DNA of 49,268 bases from Gracilaria vermiculophylla (taxonomy: Eukaryota > Rhodophyta > Florideophyceae > Gracilariales > Gracilariaceae): NCBI GenBank assembly GCA_019155205.2, contig JAHNZQ020000308.1, positions 5,911,083 to 5,960,350 of the forward strand, in the 5' to 3' direction. Positions 2,948-44,343 of this stretch are shown here, in pieces (the stretch's first letter is position 1; the number at the start of each line of letters is the position of its first letter). The position numbers and the translations under genes are program-made. The notes under the pieces were generated by a model that saw only the letters and a program-made list of their open reading frames with translations, did no database searches and was not told the DNA's origin.

Positions 2948-4153
2948 TTAAGTGCAAGCAAGTCCAACAGTACGTCGATCGAGAGCACCAGGGATCGTGA
3001 TGACTTCGCTGTTGGTTGCTAATAACTTTCTGTTCGGACGTTTTCCGTCAGATAACAAGATGGCTAACGCCCCGGCAACGTGAGGGGACGCCATAGATGT
3101 GCCAGATAATATCCTGGTTGAGCCAGGTCTCAATCCATCAGACAAAATGGAAACCCCTGGGGCAGATAACTTCGTGCACTTCATGTCTGAGGTTGCATAA
3201 TTCGTGAAGCTGGCGGGGTCCAGATTAATGTCGTGAGCTTGAACAGTGAAAATACCACCGCCGGGGGTTGATGCTGGCGAGTAGTTACACGCATTTGCAG
3301 CATCATTTCCAGCTGCAATTGTGAAGTAAACTCCGAGCTTCCTGGCCTCTGATATTGCTTCATTCACGGGTTCAAACCGTGGCCCGCTCAGTGACAGATT
3401 GATGACATCACCGTTAGCAAAAGCTCCCCTGTTGTTCACGGCAAATTCTATGCCCCTTATGACATTCGAATACGATCCAGACCCATTGTCGCTCAAAACT
3501 TTGACACAACTCCGAACAGCGGATGGGGCGACGCCGTACAGCGGACTATTCACAATCCCTGCAACATGAGTACCATGCCCTTGATTGTCCTTACAAATAG
3601 GTGATCCTCCGTAATACCCTTCGCAAAACCCTCCCGGAGTCGGATTACATCCGGTGTCCAGCACCCAAACGTTCACTCCTGCACCATTTTTACTTGACGT
3701 GTTGCATGTTCGTAATCCATCCCTCACTATATTGCCGTGTTCCCTTGTTACACCGCCATCGGCTTCATCAATGCCCCACAAATTGGTAGTGCTGGTAGCT
3801 GTGGTGACCATAAAGTCCTGTTTAACCAGATTAATATTGACATTTCCCGGAATTGACCCGACTCGCAGGGCGCTATTAACAACTGCTTCCGACATAGAGG
3901 GAGAAGGAGGACAGATAATATTAACAAAAGAGAGATCTCCGATCATAGAAGCCCTTGTGGGCCGGCATCCTGAAGTGGCTGAGTCCAATGAGAGAGAGTC
4001 CCGGATGGCCTTGCGGCATGGACCAGTGCATTTTCCTTTTACTTCGGCTATGAAAGCTCCTTTCATTGGCTGACAAAAGACCTTGCTAATGATGAGCATG
4101 AGCCCCAAAACAAATGCGAACGAAACTCTTTCGGAAAACATATAGGGAATCAC
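2948..4153 (-). CDS. Secreted subtilisin-like serine protease (S8A, proteinase K-like)
   Basis: A 401-aa endopeptidase with a complete catalytic set: Asp166 in VWVLDTG, His193 in GHGTHVAG, oxyanion Asn283 in AAGND and nucleophile Ser353 in SGTSMASPHVAG. Residues 1-27 form a signal peptide (hydrophobic core FAFVLGLMLIISKVF, likely cleavage before Gln28). Residues about 30-115 are a propeptide-like region resembling inhibitor I9 but carrying four extra cysteines (KCTGPC, SGCRP, IICPP). The mature domain is about 120-401, a normal length for proteinase K-type enzymes, and has no C-terminal extension. The gene is single-exon and ends in TAA; the ATG at 4153 is chosen because it directly precedes the signal peptide. 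Secretion and a digestive, wall-remodelling or defence role follow from the family and were not observed. It is the only intact enzyme gene in the first 20 kb. Confidence 0.93.
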   Translation of the reverse strand: MIPYMFSERVSFAFVLGLMLIISKVFCQPMKGAFIAEVKGKCTGPCRKAIRDSLSLDSATSGCRPTRASMIGDLSFVNIICPPSPSMSEAVVNSALRVGSIPGNVNINLVKQDFMVTTATSTTNLWGIDEADGGVTREHGNIVRDGLRTCNTSSKNGAGVNVWVLDTGCNPTPGGFCEGYYGGSPICKDNQGHGTHVAGIVNSPLYGVAPSAVRSCVKVLSDNGSGSYSNVIRGIEFAVNNRGAFANGDVINLSLSGPRFEPVNEAISEARKLGVYFTIAAGNDAANACNYSPASTPGGGIFTVQAHDINLDPASFTNYATSDMKCTKLSAPGVSILSDGLRPGSTRILSGTSMASPHVAGALAILLSDGKRPNRKLLATNSEVITIPGALDRRTVGLACT

Positions 4154-7100
4154 GCTCTTCTTTTGAGGTACAATACTAATCGAAATGTATCACTTCGATC
4201 TTTGACAGAAAAAATGCAATCTTGGGTCACGGGCGTAGCTTAAATAGAATGACGGAGGTCGTTGGTTTGAGGTGGTTTTGAATTTCTATTACGTTGTCCG
4301 CCAAAAAAGCGTCACCTTGTCACATAGGTGCCATAAATATGGTAGCTATGATACAGACTAAACTTGAAATCTGAAATGAGCGATGCTGAAAACATGAGAC
4401 CGATTATATCAAGAGAGCTAATGATCTCCTGTCTCAGCGGTGGCGCAACAATAGGACTGCATAAAAGTTTTTATCGGTATTCAAGAAGAGTTTCGCAATG
4501 TGGATTCGGCCAAACCATTGTGATGATACTGTAAAATCATTCACTACATTATACATATGAAACAATACACTGGAACTATTCGGACTAACTTTGCGCCCTT
4601 TAAGAGTTTTCGACGCTTTAAAGCCTCTTCAAACGGAGAGAACCATCCATTCATCCGTGGTACCTTGCAGGAAAGTACATTCTGTGTAGACAGATACATC
4701 GTCACGGATTCAAAACCCTGAAAACGACACTCGAATGAAACACTGTTTCTTCTGCGCAGTAAAGTATTTTGCTAATTCTGTCTGTAATGCTTTTGACTGC
4801 CTGAGATGAACATAATGAAGTAGTGAAGAGGGGGCATTCCACTGAAGGAAAGATGGGTTCCATCGATGCAGCTTTTCTCGAAAACGAGGGACTGGGATAG
4901 AAGAAGGCCAGTTTGTCCAACAACACTGTTGTTGACAAGCTGTTCAATTTGTATGCTCGTCATTGACTACTTGCGATTCGTCATTTAAAAGCAACTCGAA
5001 CCAATGAGCTTCCAAGCAAAGACATGCAAACAACGAAAAATGTAGCCATCACACGCACAAAACACAGTGCTTCTCCTACATTGTTGTCATTGTGCAGATA
5101 TTTCCGAAATGGGAAGGTATTGCTACGACTTAATTGCCCGATCACCGTCAACACACCCGGCGTTATAAAATAATAACATAGCTTTAATGCAAAACTTTAC
5201 AAACAAGGAAAAATGTAGCTTGCTACAGAGAAAACATCAATGTTTCTTCCACATTGTTCTCATTGAAGAATTAATAACTCCCCGCAATATATGAGGTCTT
5301 ATGCAGAACGTTGATCTTCTTGCACATGCTACAGATATTCTCGTTTTTTTGCGTATTTGCGAATTTTGTTTTGTAGACAGATAAATAGTTTTTTATTGCG
5401 CGGTATTTGTAGTTCTGTTTATTGTACAAATTATTGCCCAAGATTTTACTGCAATTGTGCCTACTAAACAGTCTGAAAGATGTAATCTGAGAATCGTGTT
5501 GGAAAGGCAGCGTTTTCGTTTTTACATAGTCTTTTGGTAATTGTGTATAATTATGCTCTTCAAAGAACCAAGTGCCATATTCATTTTCATCACTAATAAA
5601 CAAACGTATTCCAATTGCTGTAAATAGCTCGGTTTCCAACAAGTGTATTAAACAATACTTTGAACGTTCCTGCAGCCAAATTCTTACGACGTCAAAACAA
5701 AACGTTCACTGTATATCATTTCTTCAATGAACCTGAAAAACAAAATACTTCACTAACTTTGGTCTAGAAATACTTCTACTTCCAAAATGGCATGAAAATT
5801 TTTTTAATTGACGTATTTTTCTTGAAAACAGATGACTTAATATGGAAGGTTAAATTTGCAGTTGTATTCAGAAAATAAAAATTATAATCGAGGTGGAAAT
5901 ATTTATTTTCTGCTCGCAATATTTTCTTTTTACCCCTAATTACAGTTCACTATAGCGATTAAAGGGAATTTTCATGAAAAATGGCTTTCATGATTGGTTT
6001 CTAATTTACCATACTCATCATGAAGTTTGTAAATTCTATTTGAACAGAAAAGTACAACTTCTACGTCGATCAAAACGACACACGAGATTCTATAATACCA
6101 TTATTCCAACATATTTTAGAGTTCATTGACTTCATATTTTTTATACACGACAGATTGTATTTAATCCATAAATCCGCTTCCAAGAAAATCTTGCAGAATG
6201 AAAAACGTTTTTTATTGATGTCCCTAAATTGGATGGACTAAAATCGAAAGCTACCTTACCGCCGAATGGTGTTTTCATATCAATATTTGAACACGCGCTT
6301 GGTAAACTTTTTGATGACTATATATTTGGTGACATTAATTTACGCTCCAAAACGGATATGGAGCAAAGAAAAGGGATCGGTAGCAATAGTGTTTTCGATG
6401 CTGGAGATTTAAAAAAAATTATCCGAAATATTTCAGTGTACTGGTGAGGTAGATAAGAGTTGCCAGGGCATTTCAAAACATGTAAAAGCAGTTCATTCAT
6501 TTCCAACAACACGCGTGATAGCATTGCTTTTTAAGGAGAACGGAAACAAAAAGAATTGTAGTGATCGCATTATTGCGGGACTTTTTTCTGAAGGCTTACT
6601 CACCCATAGAATGTTAGAGGCTCTACGGCTAAAGAAAGAAGTACTGTGACGACAGTTTTATGGAATTTAAGTTGTGGATAAATGCCATTGTGAAGCGTGT
6701 TTCTCAACGAGAGGCAGATGAGAAATGCTATGATATAATGAAGAGTCGTTTCTACGCGACTAAAGTAAAAACTACAAACATTCAAAACATGGCATAAACG
6801 AGCAGCATGGCAAAGTGCAAACAGAGCTTACTGTCTGATGACGAGTGTCGTCGTTTACGTGCTCAGGCGTGGGCAACGATCAAGAATGAAGCGAGTGCGA
6901 TATAGTGCGCGCACGCAGTAGTAGGGAACGGACACACCCCTCGGCGTCTGGCTCTCCCAGCGTTTGTGGGTGATACGGAAGAGGTTTCTTTTATAGGATG
7001 TACCCGGCAGTAGGTTCCTCATTAATTAACGAAACGCAAATCAAATCGGACAGGGCCATCCGCGGCTGGTGAACGGGTTCTTCTGATTAAGAAACCGACT

Positions 7101-36050: not shown

Positions 36051-37556
36051 TCATACGGCTCCGTCCGGTTCGGCGTTTTCGGCGGGGGGCGCGCCGAGCC
36101 GACGCACAACGGGCGCGTGCTCGCAGAGGCGCAGCGCCGCCAGACTGCGCAGCCGTTGCACGCCCACAATGTGCGCCAGCCCTTTCTCGCCGCTGCTTCG
36201 CACCTCGAAGCGGTCGATGAGAAGCCGCGACCCCTTCCACTTGACGAAGTGCCCAAAGTGCTCGAAAATGCTAAGGCACACCGCCGCCTCCAGCACCGAC
36301 AGCGACCCATCCACTGTGTCGTGCTCGTCCACTTCCGCGTGCTCCTCGCGGTGCACCTCCGGCACCCAGCACACATTCCGAACGTCCGGCTCGATGCGCG
36401 CTAGCCCGTGATACGCCAGCAGAATGTTTTCGCGGTTGTACGGCGTGTACGTCGTCCTCTCCTCCGTCTCACCCAGCGCCGCGCTCTTGCCTAGCGTCAT
36501 CCACAACGTGAAAGCACCTATGGCCAGCGGTAGCACGTCCACCGACGGCTGCAGCAGCCCCGGCAAACCGTCGTAGAACACAATCAGCGCAATGCACAGC
36601 GCCAGCCCCACCGCGTAGATCGACACGCGCTTGCCGTTGAACATCCGCAGCCCGCGCTCGTACGCCTCGCACACCGCCGCAAACTGGCTCAACGATTTGA
36701 CCAGCAGCTCCAAGTTGGTTGTCTCAAACTGCGCGCACAGCTCCACAATCACCGCCCGGCGCCCCACCGACTGGATGCCGCTCTCCATCACGCGCAGGTG
36801 CTCCTTAGTAAACACCGCTTCCATCTTGAAATTGGTGCCCTCGATCACGTCCTTGTGCCAGCCTAGGTCGATCTTGATGGGCTCGCTGCCTAGCTTGCAC
36901 AACGCGCGCTCAACGTTCTTGTTGACGCCCACCATGACGACCGATTCATCCGTCCAGAACGCCACCGTCGTGGAGTTGAGATAGCGCAACATCTGCAGCA
37001 GTGCGCGCGTGTCTCTGGTGAGCGACTCTTCCGAGCTCACGACCGTGATAACCATGGAACCGAAACCCGACCTGGACAACTGGAGATGCGGCACCTTTTG
37101 CCCTGGTCGGCACTGAAAGCGCAGCGTCTTCTTCACGTAGCGCACCGACGGCTTGAATAGCAGCACGGAGAGGTCCAACACCATCTTCTCAAAGCCGTAC
37201 ACCCTAGGCAGCCGAATGGCCTTGTACAACAGGCCTATGACGATCCACACCAAGCTCTCTGCTAAGCCAATCAACTGGATAAAGTGCGTGAGCAAGAAGA
37301 TGGAGGAGGCGGCGAGCTTTTCGGATAGGGGGCTTTTTGCGCAGCCCACTTCCTCGTGGCCCTTGCGAACATCGTCGTAGGCGTCGAAATGGTCGTCATC
37401 ATCTTCCTCCGTGGGCTGCAGGAAGGCGTCTGCAAACAGGCGCAGCAGATAGGCATTGAGCATGGAGGTCACAACGGGGCGCCTCAACAAGTCGATGCCG
37501 ATGCCACGCTCGATCTCGCGCAGGTTGAGAGACATGTCTGAATCGGAGACCAGCAC
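36051..37556 (-). CDS. Unrecognised membrane protein, 501 aa
   Basis: A single uninterrupted 501-codon frame ending in TGA, starting MLVSDSDMSLNLREIERG (Met8 is an alternative). Predicted features are an acidic patch EEDDDD (50-55), one hydrophobic span at 84-111, a soluble middle (about 115-305), two spans at 311-328 and 340-356, and an Arg-rich C-terminal tail. I recognise no family and see no catalytic motif. Codons are strongly G/C-ending, unlike the bestrophin exons 1-6 kb away. Its start faces the bestrophin gene across 1.04 kb, so the two may share a promoter region, which is only an arrangement and not evidence of joint function. The length and clean frame argue for a real gene. Confidence 0.75.
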   Translation of the reverse strand: MLVSDSDMSLNLREIERGIGIDLLRRPVVTSMLNAYLLRLFADAFLQPTEEDDDDHFDAYDDVRKGHEEVGCAKSPLSEKLAASSIFLLTHFIQLIGLAESLVWIVIGLLYKAIRLPRVYGFEKMVLDLSVLLFKPSVRYVKKTLRFQCRPGQKVPHLQLSRSGFGSMVITVVSSEESLTRDTRALLQMLRYLNSTTVAFWTDESVVMVGVNKNVERALCKLGSEPIKIDLGWHKDVIEGTNFKMEAVFTKEHLRVMESGIQSVGRRAVIVELCAQFETTNLELLVKSLSQFAAVCEAYERGLRMFNGKRVSIYAVGLALCIALIVFYDGLPGLLQPSVDVLPLAIGAFTLWMTLGKSAALGETEERTTYTPYNRENILLAYHGLARIEPDVRNVCWVPEVHREEHAEVDEHDTVDGSLSVLEAAVCLSIFEHFGHFVKWKGSRLLIDRFEVRSSGEKGLAHIVGVQRLRSLAALRLCEHAPVVRRLGAPPAENAEPDGAV

Positions 37557-38598
37557 AGCACTTTAGGCTGGCGGTAGTGGTAAAGCAAAGTCAAACCCAA
37601 CGGCAAAACTGCATAGCGCCACAGCCACGCTTATGCGCTTTGAGAGGTTGAAACCCACGACGGTGCCAACCCGAGTACTGTTCAGAGAAGGGCAGGTGAA
37701 TAACGAATCGGTTTCCCTCACTATTTGACCCGGTGCAGTCGCATCTGAAGTACAGCGTCCACAGCCCTCCACCAGAGCGCTTACGGCGAGCTTACCACGC
37801 TGGCAAGCGTACTGTAAACAGCGGCGCCTTGCGTGTGTGTGTGGGTGAGGAAGTGGCGACAAATTCACCCTCCCCACGTGCGTGGCCATTACTTGCGATC
37901 CTATGGGGCGCAGCGCTCATACAAGTTGATGTGCTTGCCTTTGCCATGTGCACATCTTCGCGCTGCACTTCTGGCCCCTGCGCCATGGTCCAACCTTCTT
38001 CCCCCACCTCCCCGTTTATTGAACGTGCACAGAGGTCCACTCGAAGAACACAACCCCCGCACCCTTCCGTACTCAGTCGAGCATCATGACGATTCAGTGC
38101 CCTCACGCCGCCCACGGAGCCCCAATCTCACTCTCACTTGCCTCATACACGTGCGTTATCGTCGGGGTGCCGCGTATCTTCTACCGCTTCTGTAACTGCA
38201 CGCAATAAAAACATGTTCGCGGCCCCTATCTACCCCCCTACTCACCCAGCGCGTTCCAAATCTCCATCAACAATACACCATTCTCTGTCCCCACCCACGT
38301 ACGCCCCTGTTGTCCCAGGTCTTACGGACTAAGCGATACTGTGCCCCCTTTGCTGTCCTAGTCCGCTTGTACAATAAGCCATGCACTTCCGGTCTCGGTC
38401 GCACATCCGTTTGTTTTTCTCTCAACGGGGTCTGCTACCGACATTCTGCGGACTTATACGTCTAGCGTCCCCCCCAACAGCTCGGTTTGGTCACCCAGTC
38501 CCAGCCGCGCCGAGTTTGCCTCTGGGTGATGCCACAGCGTCGCAAACCACACTGGCGTAGTTAACTTCTTATCGATAACGTTAACTGAGCTGTGAACC
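37557..38598. promoter_or_regulatory. Shared intergenic region of a divergent gene pair
   Basis: 1.04 kb between the ATG of the 501-aa gene (37556) and the ATG of the five-domain bestrophin gene (38599). It must contain both promoters. I see no clear TATA box. GC falls gradually toward 38599. Overlapping frames of 60-120 codons here lack motifs and start support. Confidence 0.5.
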
Positions 38599-41500
38599 AT
38601 GACGACAGACTCGCAGCCCCATCTGCCACATTCGCAGTCTCCGGAAGATCCTCTTCCATCCGCCTCCTACAAAAACTTTCAACACACTGTTGTGGCGCTT
38701 CGCCTGAGAAGCGCCGCTCTCACCGGCACATTAGGATCAGGACCCACCGAGACGGGAGAGGCAGACTACTCCGCACTCCTTTCCGTTCTGCGAACCATTC
38801 CGTACGCCATCTTATCCTTTCAGACTGTATGGAGCATCGCTGTCACTCTCATTGCCTACGCTCTCGCAGACAAGCAACTCAGCTGGTTCTCAGTTCCATT
38901 CTGGACATCTAGACTATCCGTGTCATCTTCGGTTTCTTACGGTGTAGGATGGGCACTTTTTGTGCTGCTCGGCTTCTTCATACGAGAGGCCAGCAATCGC
39001 TATTTTGACGCTCAGTTGAATTGGTCCAATGTCGGCGCCAATCTTCGACAGCTCGCGCGTCATATCCGTCAAGTATATCCACAGGGCACTTGGCATGAAG
39101 ATGATGTCGACAGGATCGTAGCTCATCTTATTTCATATCCAATTGCACTTAAAATGACTCTACGGGAAGAAAAAGAAGCCGCGCAGCTGTCTGGCATTCT
39201 TTGTGAGAGCGACATTGAAGACGTGCTGAATGCGGATTCCATGCATGTTCATTGCATGAGGGTTGTCAGAACCTATATTAGCGCCTCTGAAGATGACGCT
39301 GTACATTCTTTCAAGTTGCTAAACTCTGAGAAGACACCGGCTGGATGGGGCGCCCGATACTTGGTTATGGATTTGATGGATGCTGTTGACTACTATGCCA
39401 ACGACTTAGTGAAGATTGCAACGTCAAGCCCCTCCAAAGGATACGTCACACATCTCACAGTTTTTCTGTACTTGTGGATGTTCTTTTTGCCACTTGCTTT
39501 GGTGCAAAGTAGTGGGTGGTAAGTTCAAAATTTCCCCTCGTATATGAATCTAGACTTAACTGAGTTCTCTGACCCACATCCCATCCTACACTCTTTCTTC
39601 ATTTTCTTCCAGTTAAGGTTTACACCACTTTGGGCGGTCCTTACTTCCTACGGTGTTGGGATGCTCTTCACCATTGGCCAAGCCCTAAGTGATCCTTTTG
39701 GCTTTGATATGCAGGACATCAAACTCAATCAACTAGCCTCTGAAGCCGCTCTCAAAACTCTCAATACTTACTCCCGTGATCAGTTGGACATAACAACCGT
39801 CATAAAAAAAGACCATGACACCCCCGAATGGCTTGAAAAGCCTCTGGCCGAAAAGAAAGCGGATAAAACGGAGTCATCCGCGACAAGTTTCTTCGCTCGA
39901 TTTATTCCATTTCGTATTGGGCGCCTCAGCAAAGGGTTTCTTTCCTATCTGGCTATGGCTGTTGTTTGGGCCGTATTTCTGTTACTCGTCACATACAGTG
40001 CAAGAGAAGTCAATGAAAACGGAACCTGCAGGTGGTGGTGTGTTTACATTCCCGTTGACTCTTCAATCACTTCTTACGTCAGTCTTGGAGTTTTCCTTAC
40101 TTTGGGGTTCTGGCTAAATGTCGCTTATGCGCGATATTGGAGGTCTTTGCAGCTTTGGCAGAGTAAAATCAGGACTTGCATTGAAGAAATCGCCCTTCAA
40201 TTTGCAGTGACATGCAAGCGCGGAGTGTGGCACCAAAGAGATCGCGAGCGTCTCTTTTCTCACCTCGTGGCTCTGGTATATGGCGCTAAACAGGACTTAC
40301 GAAGCAATAAGAACACCTCTGTGTTGGAAGGTATTCTTTCTCCTCAAGACATTGCTGCATTTGACGAATCTGACGATTTCTTCGCACATGCCACAGACGT
40401 GATTTATGGATACCTGAATGCCCTTGATTGTGCCCATGATGAAACCACCGAGGTTGATTCGTCGCCCTGGTCGTGCGCAGTTTATTCAATTGAATATAGT
40501 TTGTGGGCTTTAGAGACGGCAATTCAGGAATGCAAGTCTATCCACAAGTTTCCCATCTCTCAGTCTTTCACAATTCATCTGAAGTTGTTTACATTTTTTT
40601 GGTTGGCGCTCCTTCCGTTGTCCCTTGTTCAATTTGCTGGCTTCACGGCTTTCTTCTACATCGTTCCTATCAGTTACTCAATTATTAATCTCATCAGGAT
40701 TGGAAGTGATCTTGCTGATCCTTTTGGCTATGACGAGGAAGACATACCTTTGGATCTTTTCTGTGATGAAATCCGCGAGTCAATTCATGCCATTTATAAC
40801 GAATCATTGAGAGGAGCAGCTGATTATGTGCGGCCATCGACCTATTCTCGAGATATGTTCAAGGCCAAACCCGGTCAATTTGGTGTCATTGATGCAGAAC
40901 CGTGTCTGAATCCAAATCTTGGGGTTTTTAAGCGATTTTTGCAATCATTGAAGACTGACGACGATTCCAATAATCCATCTTTCATCGGTTCTTTGAAGAA
41001 GATTGTCTCCACGTTCCCATCTGTGTCATTTCGCGGTATGGCTTTGGTTATTCTCTGGTCTATCTTCGCTGTCCTTATATCTTATGGGTTTTCTTTTACA
41101 TGGGAAGAATCAAAACGTAATGCTTGTGGGAAATGGTGCAGTCCAATTGATGTCCAAATGTCCGTATTGGCTAACATTGGCTTTGCCTTGTTCATGATAC
41201 TCAGTTTTCGTGCCTCTGATGCTATTGGAAGGTATGAAGAGGGTGCAATGCTTATATTTGATATTGAAATGAATCTACGCAATTTGGCTATTGAAATTGT
41301 TCAAACGTTCAAGGAGGGCTTTTTTCATGAAAAGGACAAAGAAAGAATTGTAGCTCATATCGTACAAATTCCTCTCCGTTTTCGAAGCGAGCTCTTAAAG
41401 AATGGCCTAAATGCGAAGGATGAGGGATTACTTTCTGATGAGGATATTGACCGAATGCTGTCGAGCAAATTTCCCCTCGAGCATTTGCTTCAAACTATCG

Positions 41501-44343
41501 AGGCCTATATCCTGATTCAAGACTCTACTAGTCGAGAAGAATTTGAGCATCTTCCGGAATCGAGAGCATCTGCTTCTGTGTGCTCTACAATGATTGGTCG
41601 CATAACAACTGTTCGTGAAACAATGTCCCGTGCTTTCGGTGTCAAGCGCTACCCGGTCATATCAAGCTACACCCATCATCAACATCTTTTTACCGTTCTT
41701 TGGTTGGTTCTTTTACCATTTGCCATGACATCAAACACTGGATTTTTCACTGTTTTATGGGCCCCAGTCATTTCATTTGGTGTACTTGGACTGGAAGAGT
41801 TGGCCTCAAAACTTGTGGATCCATATGGGGATGATGATGTTGATATTCCTGTGGATAAGATGTGTGCTGATGCAGCAAGCTCAGTTCTTGAAGGCGTGGA
41901 AAGCATCAGGTGGGGTGTGACTCATCACACTAGACCATCCAGCTCCGATGGGGATCCTCAGCTTGGCACTGTGCTAAAAAAGAAAGAGATTCTTCACAAA
42001 CATACTCTTGCCCATTTTACGGATAATGACCAAGTTTCAGTATCTTTCGGGGATACAACTCTCCTTCAATTTGATAGTCCCGACGAAGAGAAAGTGAAAC
42101 CTCATTTGTATTCTCATCTTCTTCAATCTGTTCCTTGGTGGGTTCTACTTTTCGTCACAGTGTGGACTTTGTTGGCAACTGCAATATCTTACTTTGCAAG
42201 AGACAGGACAATTGTATCAAGATGGTGGAAATCAAGTTTTGTCGTGGATACCACTGTTGCGACTTACGTTTCTTTTGCTGGTAAGTTGTACCGCCAAATG
42301 CATGAAAAGCAGACTTTCGCTGATGCAAATTTGATTTCGGTGTTTTACTAACTGCGTTTGCATTTTCACACACATCTTACAGCGTTTATGCTTCTAGGTT
42401 TCTTCGTTCAGTCTGCATTCGTGCGGTACATCTCTGCCGGAAGTGTTTGGGGAGCGCGACTTCGTGCCTCTTGTCATACTCTGGCTGTACATTTTCAAAC
42501 TTTGTTTTCTGAAGGAAGTATTCATGAGGGTGATCACCGCAGAATGCTGGCTCACATTGCAGCCATTCCGCTGGTGTTGAAAAGAGAATTGCGCAATTCT
42601 CGTGATCTTCAAGAACTCAAGGCTCTACTATCGCACGATGACATCTCCAGAATTCAATGTGCTGAAAGCATGGTAAGCCACTGCGTCGATGTTCTTCGTT
42701 CTTATTACGCTATTTATTCGCACAATTCCCATCTATTGAAGAAACCTGTTATCTATGGAAGCGGATCGGCATTCGTCAATTTTGAAATCAGAGACCTGGA
42801 AAAAATGATTCGCCAATCGAAGTTTCTACGATCGTTTGAGATTGCTCCGGGTTTCCTTGTTTTACTCAATTGTTTCCTTGGTATATGGTTCTTGATTCTT
42901 CCTTTCGCTCTTGCTGAGTATTCAGGTACGTAGCACCTCGGAGAAAATGACATTTTCTTTTTCTATTTCTATTTATGTGTGAAGTTCAACTGACATTTAT
43001 TATTGTCTCGGCTTCTCTCAACTGTAGGATGGTTTACAATTTTATTGGTTCCCATCATTGCTTACGGTGTGCTTGGGTAAGTATAGGTTTCCATTCCAGC
43101 CAGCGATTTTAGAACAAAACACTAACAGTTTCGCAGAATGTACGAGATCGCAAAGGAATTACAGTTTCCATTTGGGACAGATTTGAACGATTTGGATCTC
43201 ACCGCAATGGCCAATTTGATTGTTTCAGATATCTTGTTTGTTGAGAAGTACGGGAAACCAGTTTCAGAAATATTCGTGCATCCAGCTGAAATCACTTCAT
43301 ATTGGACAGAGAACCGAGAAGGAGCGCCAACGACGGTCAAAAGGCAGGCCTGTCTACCCAAAATGCGTGAGTTTCTTCGTTTGGCTCTACACACTTTCTC
43401 GCCGATTCAGACAGCAGCCATTCTGTTATGGACTATCGCCATGCTCCTTCTTGCATGGGGCATCTCAAAGGCTTTTCCATTTGCAGATTCGGTAGAGGCT
43501 GGTTGTGGTTTGTGGTTTTGTTCTAGAATTGCGGTTGGTAGCACTGTGAAGGAATACATTGGATTTGCACTTTTTCTGCTCCTTGGTTTCCGTCTATATG
43601 AAAGTCATGGACGGTATGTTTCTGGGACTCGAATCTGGAGTGGTATTTTGGGAACCACAAGAATTTTATCAAACAGGTTTTTTGAGAGTTATTACGGAAA
43701 TGAATGGCACGAACAAGATCAAGAGCGATTTGCAGCTCATTTAACTGCTTTTTCTGTGGCCGTGATGGCTAAACTAAGAAGAGAGGAATGTCGTGAACAA
43801 TTCAGAAAATATTTGAGCGAAGAGGATACAGAAATGTTGCTAAAGGCTCCAGATCCAGCTGATTACTGTTTAGATGTAATGCATCATTACATTGTTCAGA
43901 GCGACTACTGGCGGAATGCAGACGACAAAGAAGATCCGATCAGTTATGATGAACATTGGAGTATTATGTGGTATCTTCGGACTCTGAAAAACTCCGCGAT
44001 TGATTGTGAAGAAATACTCAACATACCAATGCCTTTTGGATATGTCCAACATCTTAGGATTTTTTTGATTATTTGGTTATTATTGTTACCTCTTGGTTTG
44101 GTTGAAACAAGTGGATGGTTGACGATTCTGTGGATCGGATTCATTGCTTACGGTGTTGTAGGTATTGAAAAGTGGTCTGAAGAACTGGGCAATCCATTTG
44201 GTCATGATGTCTCTGATTTGCCTCTTGATAACTACGTTGAAAACGCGGCTCATGTCGTACGATGGAACCTAAATGTTTACAAAAATGGTTTGCAAGGAAT
44301 TATTCGAGAGGATAGAAAGCCATTTTCTCTCACGGATGCCTGA
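38599..44343 (+). CDS. Five-domain tandem bestrophin (single-chain pentameric anion channel candidate), 1793 aa, 5 exons
   Basis: Join 38599-39518, 39618-42280, 42383-42925, 43028-43076, 43137-44343 (5382 nt). It encodes five bestrophin/RFP-TM (UPF0187) repeats, each of four membrane helices, about 20 in total. Each repeat has a Trp in helix 1, a GF...RY helix-2 motif, HE/HQ-x-D-x-x-R...H, a W...LP helix 3 and a PxG-x-D-x-x-D signature. The signatures start at residues 332, 674, 1041, 1402 and 1744. Bestrophins are normally 300-400-aa single-repeat subunits forming pentamers around a hydrophobic neck. Neck-equivalent triads here are W118/V122/F126, L463/L467/F471, F829/M833/F837, F1193/M1197/F1201 and F1535/L1539/F1543. 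Exon 2 alone runs from the end of repeat 1 into repeat 4 and exon 5 joins repeats 4 and 5, so the fusion does not rest on doubtful splicing. Introns are 99, 102, 102 and 60 bp with GT...AG. Likely role: chloride or bicarbonate conductance; location unknown, and no clear transit peptide is seen. Confidence 0.93.
38767..39730 (+). other. Bestrophin repeat 1 (residues about 57-345)
   Basis: Helix 1 near 64-88 (QTVWSIAVTLIAY), helix 2 with GWALFVLLGFF and RYFDAQLNW, GTWHEDDVDRIVAHLISYPI, helix 3 THLTVFLYLWMFFLPLALVQ, and the DPFGFDMQDI signature at 332-341. Intron 1 (39519-39617) splits Trp307 between helices 3 and 4. Its acceptor is AAG, because the nearer CAG acceptor would create an immediate stop. 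Confidence 0.9.
39931..40767 (+). other. Bestrophin repeat 2 (residues about 412-690)
   Basis: Wholly inside exon 2. It shows AVVWAVFLLLVTYSA, LGFWLNVAYARYWRSLQLW, GVWHQRDRERLFSHL, IHLKLFTFFWLALLPLSLVQ and DPFGYDEEDIPLD (from residue 674). Confidence 0.9.
41023..41865 (+). other. Bestrophin repeat 3 (residues about 776-1056)
   Basis: Wholly inside exon 2. It shows LVILWSIFAVLISYGF, GFALFMILSFRASDAIGRY, GFFHEKDKERIVAHIVQIPL, LFTVLWLVLLPFAMTSNTGF and DPYGDDDVDIPVD (from 1041), the most acidic of the five signatures. The Trp that follows RY in the other repeats is missing (MLIFDIE). Confidence 0.9.
42124..43221 (+). other. Bestrophin repeat 4 (residues about 1143-1420), the divergent and intron-rich repeat
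   Basis: VTVWTLLATAISYFA, FMLLGFFVQSAFVRYISAGS, GSIHEGDHRRMLAHIAAIPL, LGIWFLILPFALAEYSGW and FPFGTDLNDLDL (from 1402). It lacks the His before helix 3 and has Phe instead of Asp/Asn before PFG. It contains introns 2 (42281-42382), 3 (42926-43027) and 4 (43077-43136); exon 4 is only 49 bp and codes the helix-4 segment. Confidence 0.88.
43396..44232 (+). other. Bestrophin repeat 5 (residues about 1479-1757)
   Basis: AAILLWTIAMLLLAWGISK, GFALFLLLGFRLYESHGRY, NEWHEQDQERFAAHLTAF, HLRIFLIIWLLLLPLGLVET, SGWLTILWIGFIAYGVVGIE and NPFGHDVSDLPLD (from 1744). It lies entirely in exon 5. The protein ends 36 residues later with no regulatory tail. Confidence 0.9.

Follow-up and report, generated by a model that had tools for sequence, protein, structure and literature searches.

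Five tandem bestrophin domains in one red-algal polypeptide: a candidate single-chain pseudo-pentameric channel

The gene and its five domains

The window, a stretch of 49,268 nucleotides of DNA from Gracilaria vermiculophylla, contains a gene that probably encodes a single-chain pseudo-pentameric bestrophin channel. Five subunits are present in one chain, in an order common to its relatives; a complete, lopsided channel may therefore form from a single folded chain. It is also likely, although we hold this a little less firmly, that red algae evolved covalent, fixed-order pentameric channels in which one polypeptide forms one pore with an asymmetric neck built from five specialised domains. 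The earlier note on this DNA had proposed a single-chain pentamer, a reading supported by five domains in all 10 spanning genes and the domain order in 67 of 69 homologues, and further by tree branches with 100/100 support, position-specific neck residues, similar divergence of the domains and structure predictions with pTM values of 0.72 and 0.78.

The gene is on the forward strand, and splicing of the window DNA gives five exons within positions 38599-44343 that encode 1793 residues. The spliced frame is open for all 1793 residues and then reaches a stop codon, in agreement with the 5382-nt frame claimed previously. The parts of the gene model are as follows.

38599..39518, + strand: exon 1, with the start codon, the N-terminal tail and D1 as far as ...SSG(W)
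39519..39617, + strand: intron 1, GTAAGT...AAG, within D1
39618..42280, + strand: exon 2, 2663 nt open throughout, comprising the end of D1, the whole of D2 and D3, and the start of D4
42383..42925, + strand: exon 3, middle of D4
43028..43076, + strand: exon 4, a 49-nt mini-exon in D4 (WFTIL...VLG)
43137..44343, + strand: exon 5, end of D4, D5 and stop codon

Many other family members break close to the site of intron 1, and the 49-nt mini-exon is found in the models of all four paralogues. The four donors were chosen by eye, after which 30 combinations of acceptors keep the frame open; the set used was adopted because it restores junction residues that are conserved in relatives (SGWFT and LGMY). 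The intron 1 acceptor is an unusual AAG (39615-39617) that brings back the SGWFT stretch known from relatives, and the alternative CAG at 39610-39612, five bases earlier, leads to a stop two codons on.

Pfam assigns the 1793 residues to one family, PF25539 (Bestrophin_2), with 588.3 bits across five stretches, the five matches that the earlier note had expected of a bestrophin-family HMM. When the protein was cut in five, each piece alone scored 110-159 bits against the PF25539 cut-off of 27, whereas the top score among 200 shuffles of the protein was 3.6 bits (E 0.36) with a family HMM built here. The claim of five complete bestrophin copies is confirmed by these stretches. The spacing given for the PFG/PYG signatures (342, 367, 361 and 342) also stands, but each residue number was off by one, the signatures being at residues 333, 675, 1042, 1403 and 1745. 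The domains are located as follows.

38791..39840, + strand: D1, residues 65-381, split by intron 1; tree branch 100/100
39943..40866, + strand: D2, residues 416-723
41017..41949, + strand: D3, residues 774-1084; tree branch 100/100
42124..43311, + strand: D4, residues 1143-1450, split by introns 2-4; tree branch 100/100
43405..44319, + strand: D5, residues 1482-1786; tree branch 100/100, which includes P0048, a D5 piece

A profile of the five window domains and three related ones matches the bacterial bestrophin KpBest (E about 1e-37) and bestrhodopsin (E 6.5e-29), the latter also being the top solved sequence match of window D5 (E 3.8e-17). A rhodopsin fusion was considered and rejected, because Pfam gives Bestrophin_2 alone, and no rhodopsin domain, in the 1793 residues at E up to 1. 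The older Pfam model, PF01062, has no match in the algal genome itself or in 14 control genomes and is therefore uninformative. A simple hydropathy count on the window protein gave 17 peaks, not 20, and was kept out of the argument.

Number, order and history of the domains among homologues

The genome searched comprises 44.8 Mb in 27 contigs and contains three further intact five-domain genes, with spliced models of 1842, 1805 and 1788 residues, located on contig 14 (the window gene's own contig, ~320 kb away), contig 21 and contig 22. Two of them have single exons of >4 kb that run from D1 to most of D4. The window gene is one of four paralogues within a wider red-algal family. Contig 11 also contains two single-domain bestrophin genes with apparent introns, L028 (303000-307500) and L029 (208000-213000); L029 groups with P0050 on an unstarred branch (95/65), with 46% identity over 223 columns.

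Three queries were used to collect homologues: the full protein gave 25 matches, a single-domain alignment of eight rows 26, and a two-domain alignment of two rows 20. Two matches recur among these protein searches, leaving 69 distinct homologues, of which the nearest named ones are from Agarophyton chilense, Gracilariopsis chorda and Gracilaria domingensis. Exactly five domains are present in 10 of the 10 genes that were selected because they begin with the start of D1 and continue to the end of D5, namely the four from the alga's own genome and P0001, P0002, P0003, P0005, P0007 and P0009; genes of Agarophyton, Gracilariopsis and Gracilaria are among them. The beginning of D2 is missing from P0001 and part of D5 from P0005, probably through gaps in the gene models. 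Five other proteins with a D1 start (P0004, P0010, P0021, P0024 and P0025) stop inside D4.

When one profile was used for each position, 67 of the 69 homologues were found to contain only D1-D5 pieces in the correct order, and 42 of these 67 are absent from the position profiles. The domains of P0001-P0025 had been labelled by order, and 23 of these 25 proteins contributed at least one full-size domain to a position profile, so their order is not independent; the 42 later proteins are independent for order, as is the tree, which includes 10 of the 25 and the four own-genome genes. Among the 67 is P0048, a piece with D5 alone that its source labels as a complete frame. Only P0050 and P0051 depart from this pattern; both have a single bestrophin domain, and P0051 is fungal. 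Shorter homologues mostly start or stop near intron sites in D1 or D4, and several partial pairs, such as P0033 and P0053 (10887), share one source-contig size, as they would if they were exons of a single gene. P0004, whose source is apparently a transcript, links D1 through to D4, where its frame seems to be lost after GWFTI; no transcript spanning all five domains is among the homologue sequences found. No intermediate layout occurs among the 69 homologues, the single-domain proteins P0050 and P0051 aside. This is not proof that there are none, because only 7995 candidates were scored in the search with the single-domain alignment and 7994 in that with the two-domain alignment.

A tree was built from 66 domain rows; D1, D2, D3, D4 and D5 each form one branch in it with 100/100 support, and P0048 is within the D5 branch. 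The tree and the residue counts exclude rows with <200 profile positions, among them the fungal P0051. Near the root, the placement of single-domain rows is unsure, and their long branches are flagged. The single strongly supported branch per position indicates that the fusion is old and that number and order have been kept. Within one protein the domains are only 23-30% identical, as compared with same-position identities to the window domains of 63-71% in the paralogue PAR25, 74-85% in P0001, 47-54% in PAR26 and PAR27, and 40-47% in P0009. Therefore the fusion came first, the positions then diverged, and gene duplication and speciation followed. In these sequences no mixing between positions and no change of number is visible since the fusion. 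Because all of the genes descend from one five-domain ancestor, the match between five domains and the stoichiometry amounts to one coincidence followed by long conservation.

Linkers, predicted structure and the arrangement of the chain

The linkers between successive domains of the window protein are 29, 49, 52 and 25 residues long. They are of similar length (26-30, 47-51, 49-52 and 23-25 residues) across the window gene, its paralogues, P0002, P0003 and P0005, and reach about 90 residues in more distant members. Linkers of this size are compatible with adjacent places in one ring, but length alone does not exclude placement of the next domain in a neighbouring ring.

Two AlphaFold models were calculated, each with a single chain supplied: D1-D3 of P0025 (1173 residues, 25 sequences; mean pLDDT 75.2, pTM 0.78, 170 residues below pLDDT 50) and exon 2 of the window gene, which includes complete D2 and D3 (887 residues, 26 sequences; pLDDT 74.2, pTM 0.72, 140 residues below pLDDT 50). 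The window protein has a predicted bestrophin fold, its D2 model matching the structures of KpBest, VCCN1, bestrhodopsin and animal bestrophins, and in the P0025 model solved bestrophins are matched by D1, by D2 and, with a single row, by D3. With domains loosely placed, a pTM well below these values would be expected, and neighbours therefore seem to have a preferred arrangement relative to one another in these one-chain models.

In the proposed channel, consecutive domains would occupy adjacent positions around one pore, D5 would close against D1, and free assembly would be replaced by linkers of about 25-52 residues. The linkers would also be long enough for the domains of a chain to be shared among several rings, for example as an array in which five chains form five homomeric pores; single-domain bestrophins do form pentamers, and larger groupings are described as possible for Chlamydomonas BST4 (PMC11638005). 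This arrangement is quite unlikely, because it gives no reason for the constant number of five and the fixed order, and both AlphaFold models, although of one chain, pack consecutive domains with fair confidence.

It is likewise quite unlikely that the chain is a polyprotein cut into five different subunits that then form a 1:1:1:1:1 heteropentamer. The divergence by position fits this equally well, and a dinoflagellate light-harvesting protein has been termed a putative polyprotein, but the similar linker lengths described above argue against it, as does an HxTPxW stretch between D1 and D2 in 26 of the 69 proteins scanned, of which 38 span this junction.

That five adjacent single-domain genes were misjoined, or that the locus is a decayed tandem array, is scarcely credible: the gene model is predicted, the acceptor of intron 1 is unusual and the frame stays open with other acceptor sets too, but the single 2663-nt exon covers the end of D1 to the start of D4, the >4 kb exons of two paralogues and the apparent transcript P0004 join D1 to D4 or most of it, and dN between the window gene and PAR25 is 0.21-0.30 in each domain. 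Divergence is similar across all five domains; dS was not computable in 14 of 15 comparisons, as with saturation, and hence no dN/dS is given. An assembly artefact or pseudogene was rejected on the basis of the long multi-domain exons, the three intact paralogues and the similar, low dN throughout.

Pore residues and relation to known channels

The neck of KpBest comprises I62, I66 and F70 (PMC8496536). When mapped on KpBest, the necks of the single-chain protein are, from D1 to D5, W-V-F, L-L-F, F-M-F, F-M-F and F-L-F; all three positions are hydrophobic in each of the five domains, and the third is always F. The first residue is conserved by position in the family (W in 14 of 16 D1 rows, L in 27 of 29 D2 rows, and F in 27 of 29 D3, 21 of 26 D4 and 22 of 24 D5 rows), and the difference in neck between domains has therefore been kept by evolution. 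The middle position is looser, with Thr in 11 of 26 D4 rows. The single chain would accordingly have an asymmetric pore in which each domain supplies a different, position-specific neck residue above a ring of five phenylalanines, and may conduct small ions across a red-algal membrane. The equivalent of the aperture residue, KpBest I180, reads as G, C, S, S and D in the window domains, within a poorly aligned loop, and is apparently not conserved. The eukaryotic neck is described as I-F-F, with the middle Phe favouring Cl- (PMC8496536). None of the five window domains has this animal neck, the middle position being V, L, M, M and L, and ion selectivity and gating are for that reason not readable from the sequence.

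A D-x-x-D motif, which may correspond to D301/D304 in the animal numbering, follows PFG/PYG in all five window domains. Across 124 family domains, an alignment-column count places the first D in 111 and the second in 118; of the two acids KpBest has the second alone, whereas the window domains have both, five out of five. D301 and D304 are reported to hold Ca2+ in animal bestrophins, backbone contacts also being needed (PMC8496536), and control of the window channel by Ca2+ may thus be regarded as a testable lead, not a result.

KpBest, with an I-I-F neck, has one domain per chain and five chains (PMC8496536; PDB 4wd7, 4wd8, 6iv0-6iv4 and others), in contrast to the five different domains in one chain here. 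Bestrhodopsin is likewise a long fused chain with a bestrophin domain, but its entry (PDB 7pl9) is entitled rhodopsin-rhodopsin-bestrophin and has five chains, and the window protein has no rhodopsin domain. Thylakoid VCCN1 (PDB 7ek1-7ek3) is described as a homopentamer (PMC9076864) and algal BST4 is reported as a pentamer (PMC11638005), as compared with five domains in one chain in the window. According to a study of diatoms, red algae have bestrophin homologues, none of them in the BST1-3 group as defined there (PMC11142338).

P0003 is already deposited as Bestrophin/UPF0187, and the sequences of the family are public. In full-text literature searches, whose coverage is incomplete, including for subscription papers, we found no tandem or five-fold bestrophin, no pairing of 'bestrophin' with 'Gracilaria' and no comment on the five-fold make-up of the deposited family proteins. 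To our knowledge, pentameric channels are assemblies of separate subunits, and linked versions are laboratory constructs; we know of no earlier natural single-chain pentameric channel. In the four-repeat Nav/Cav channels, tandem fusion of subunits has given a pseudo-symmetric pore with fixed, diverged repeats. The principle of fusion is the same, but the fold is unrelated, and four repeats correspond there to a tetramer whereas five match a pentamer here. If the single-chain reading is correct, the window protein would be the five-fold counterpart of these channels and the first natural single-chain pentameric channel. A natural repeat number that equals the stoichiometry and is kept across paralogues and species would offer a route to why subunits fuse. 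Such a fused channel would also allow one to ask by what route a pore loses its five-fold symmetry and what part each position plays in gating and selectivity, and would provide a bestrophin that can be altered at one position at a time.

Three other features of the window were recorded. The first of these is about 1 kb from the bestrophin gene and head to head with it, and has no Pfam match at E 0.001.

36054-37562, - strand: open frame of 503 residues
23832-26338, + strand: retroelement frames, with reverse transcriptase/RNase H and integrase
2951-4189, - strand: frame of 413 residues with a subtilase domain (PF00082, E 2.2e-27)
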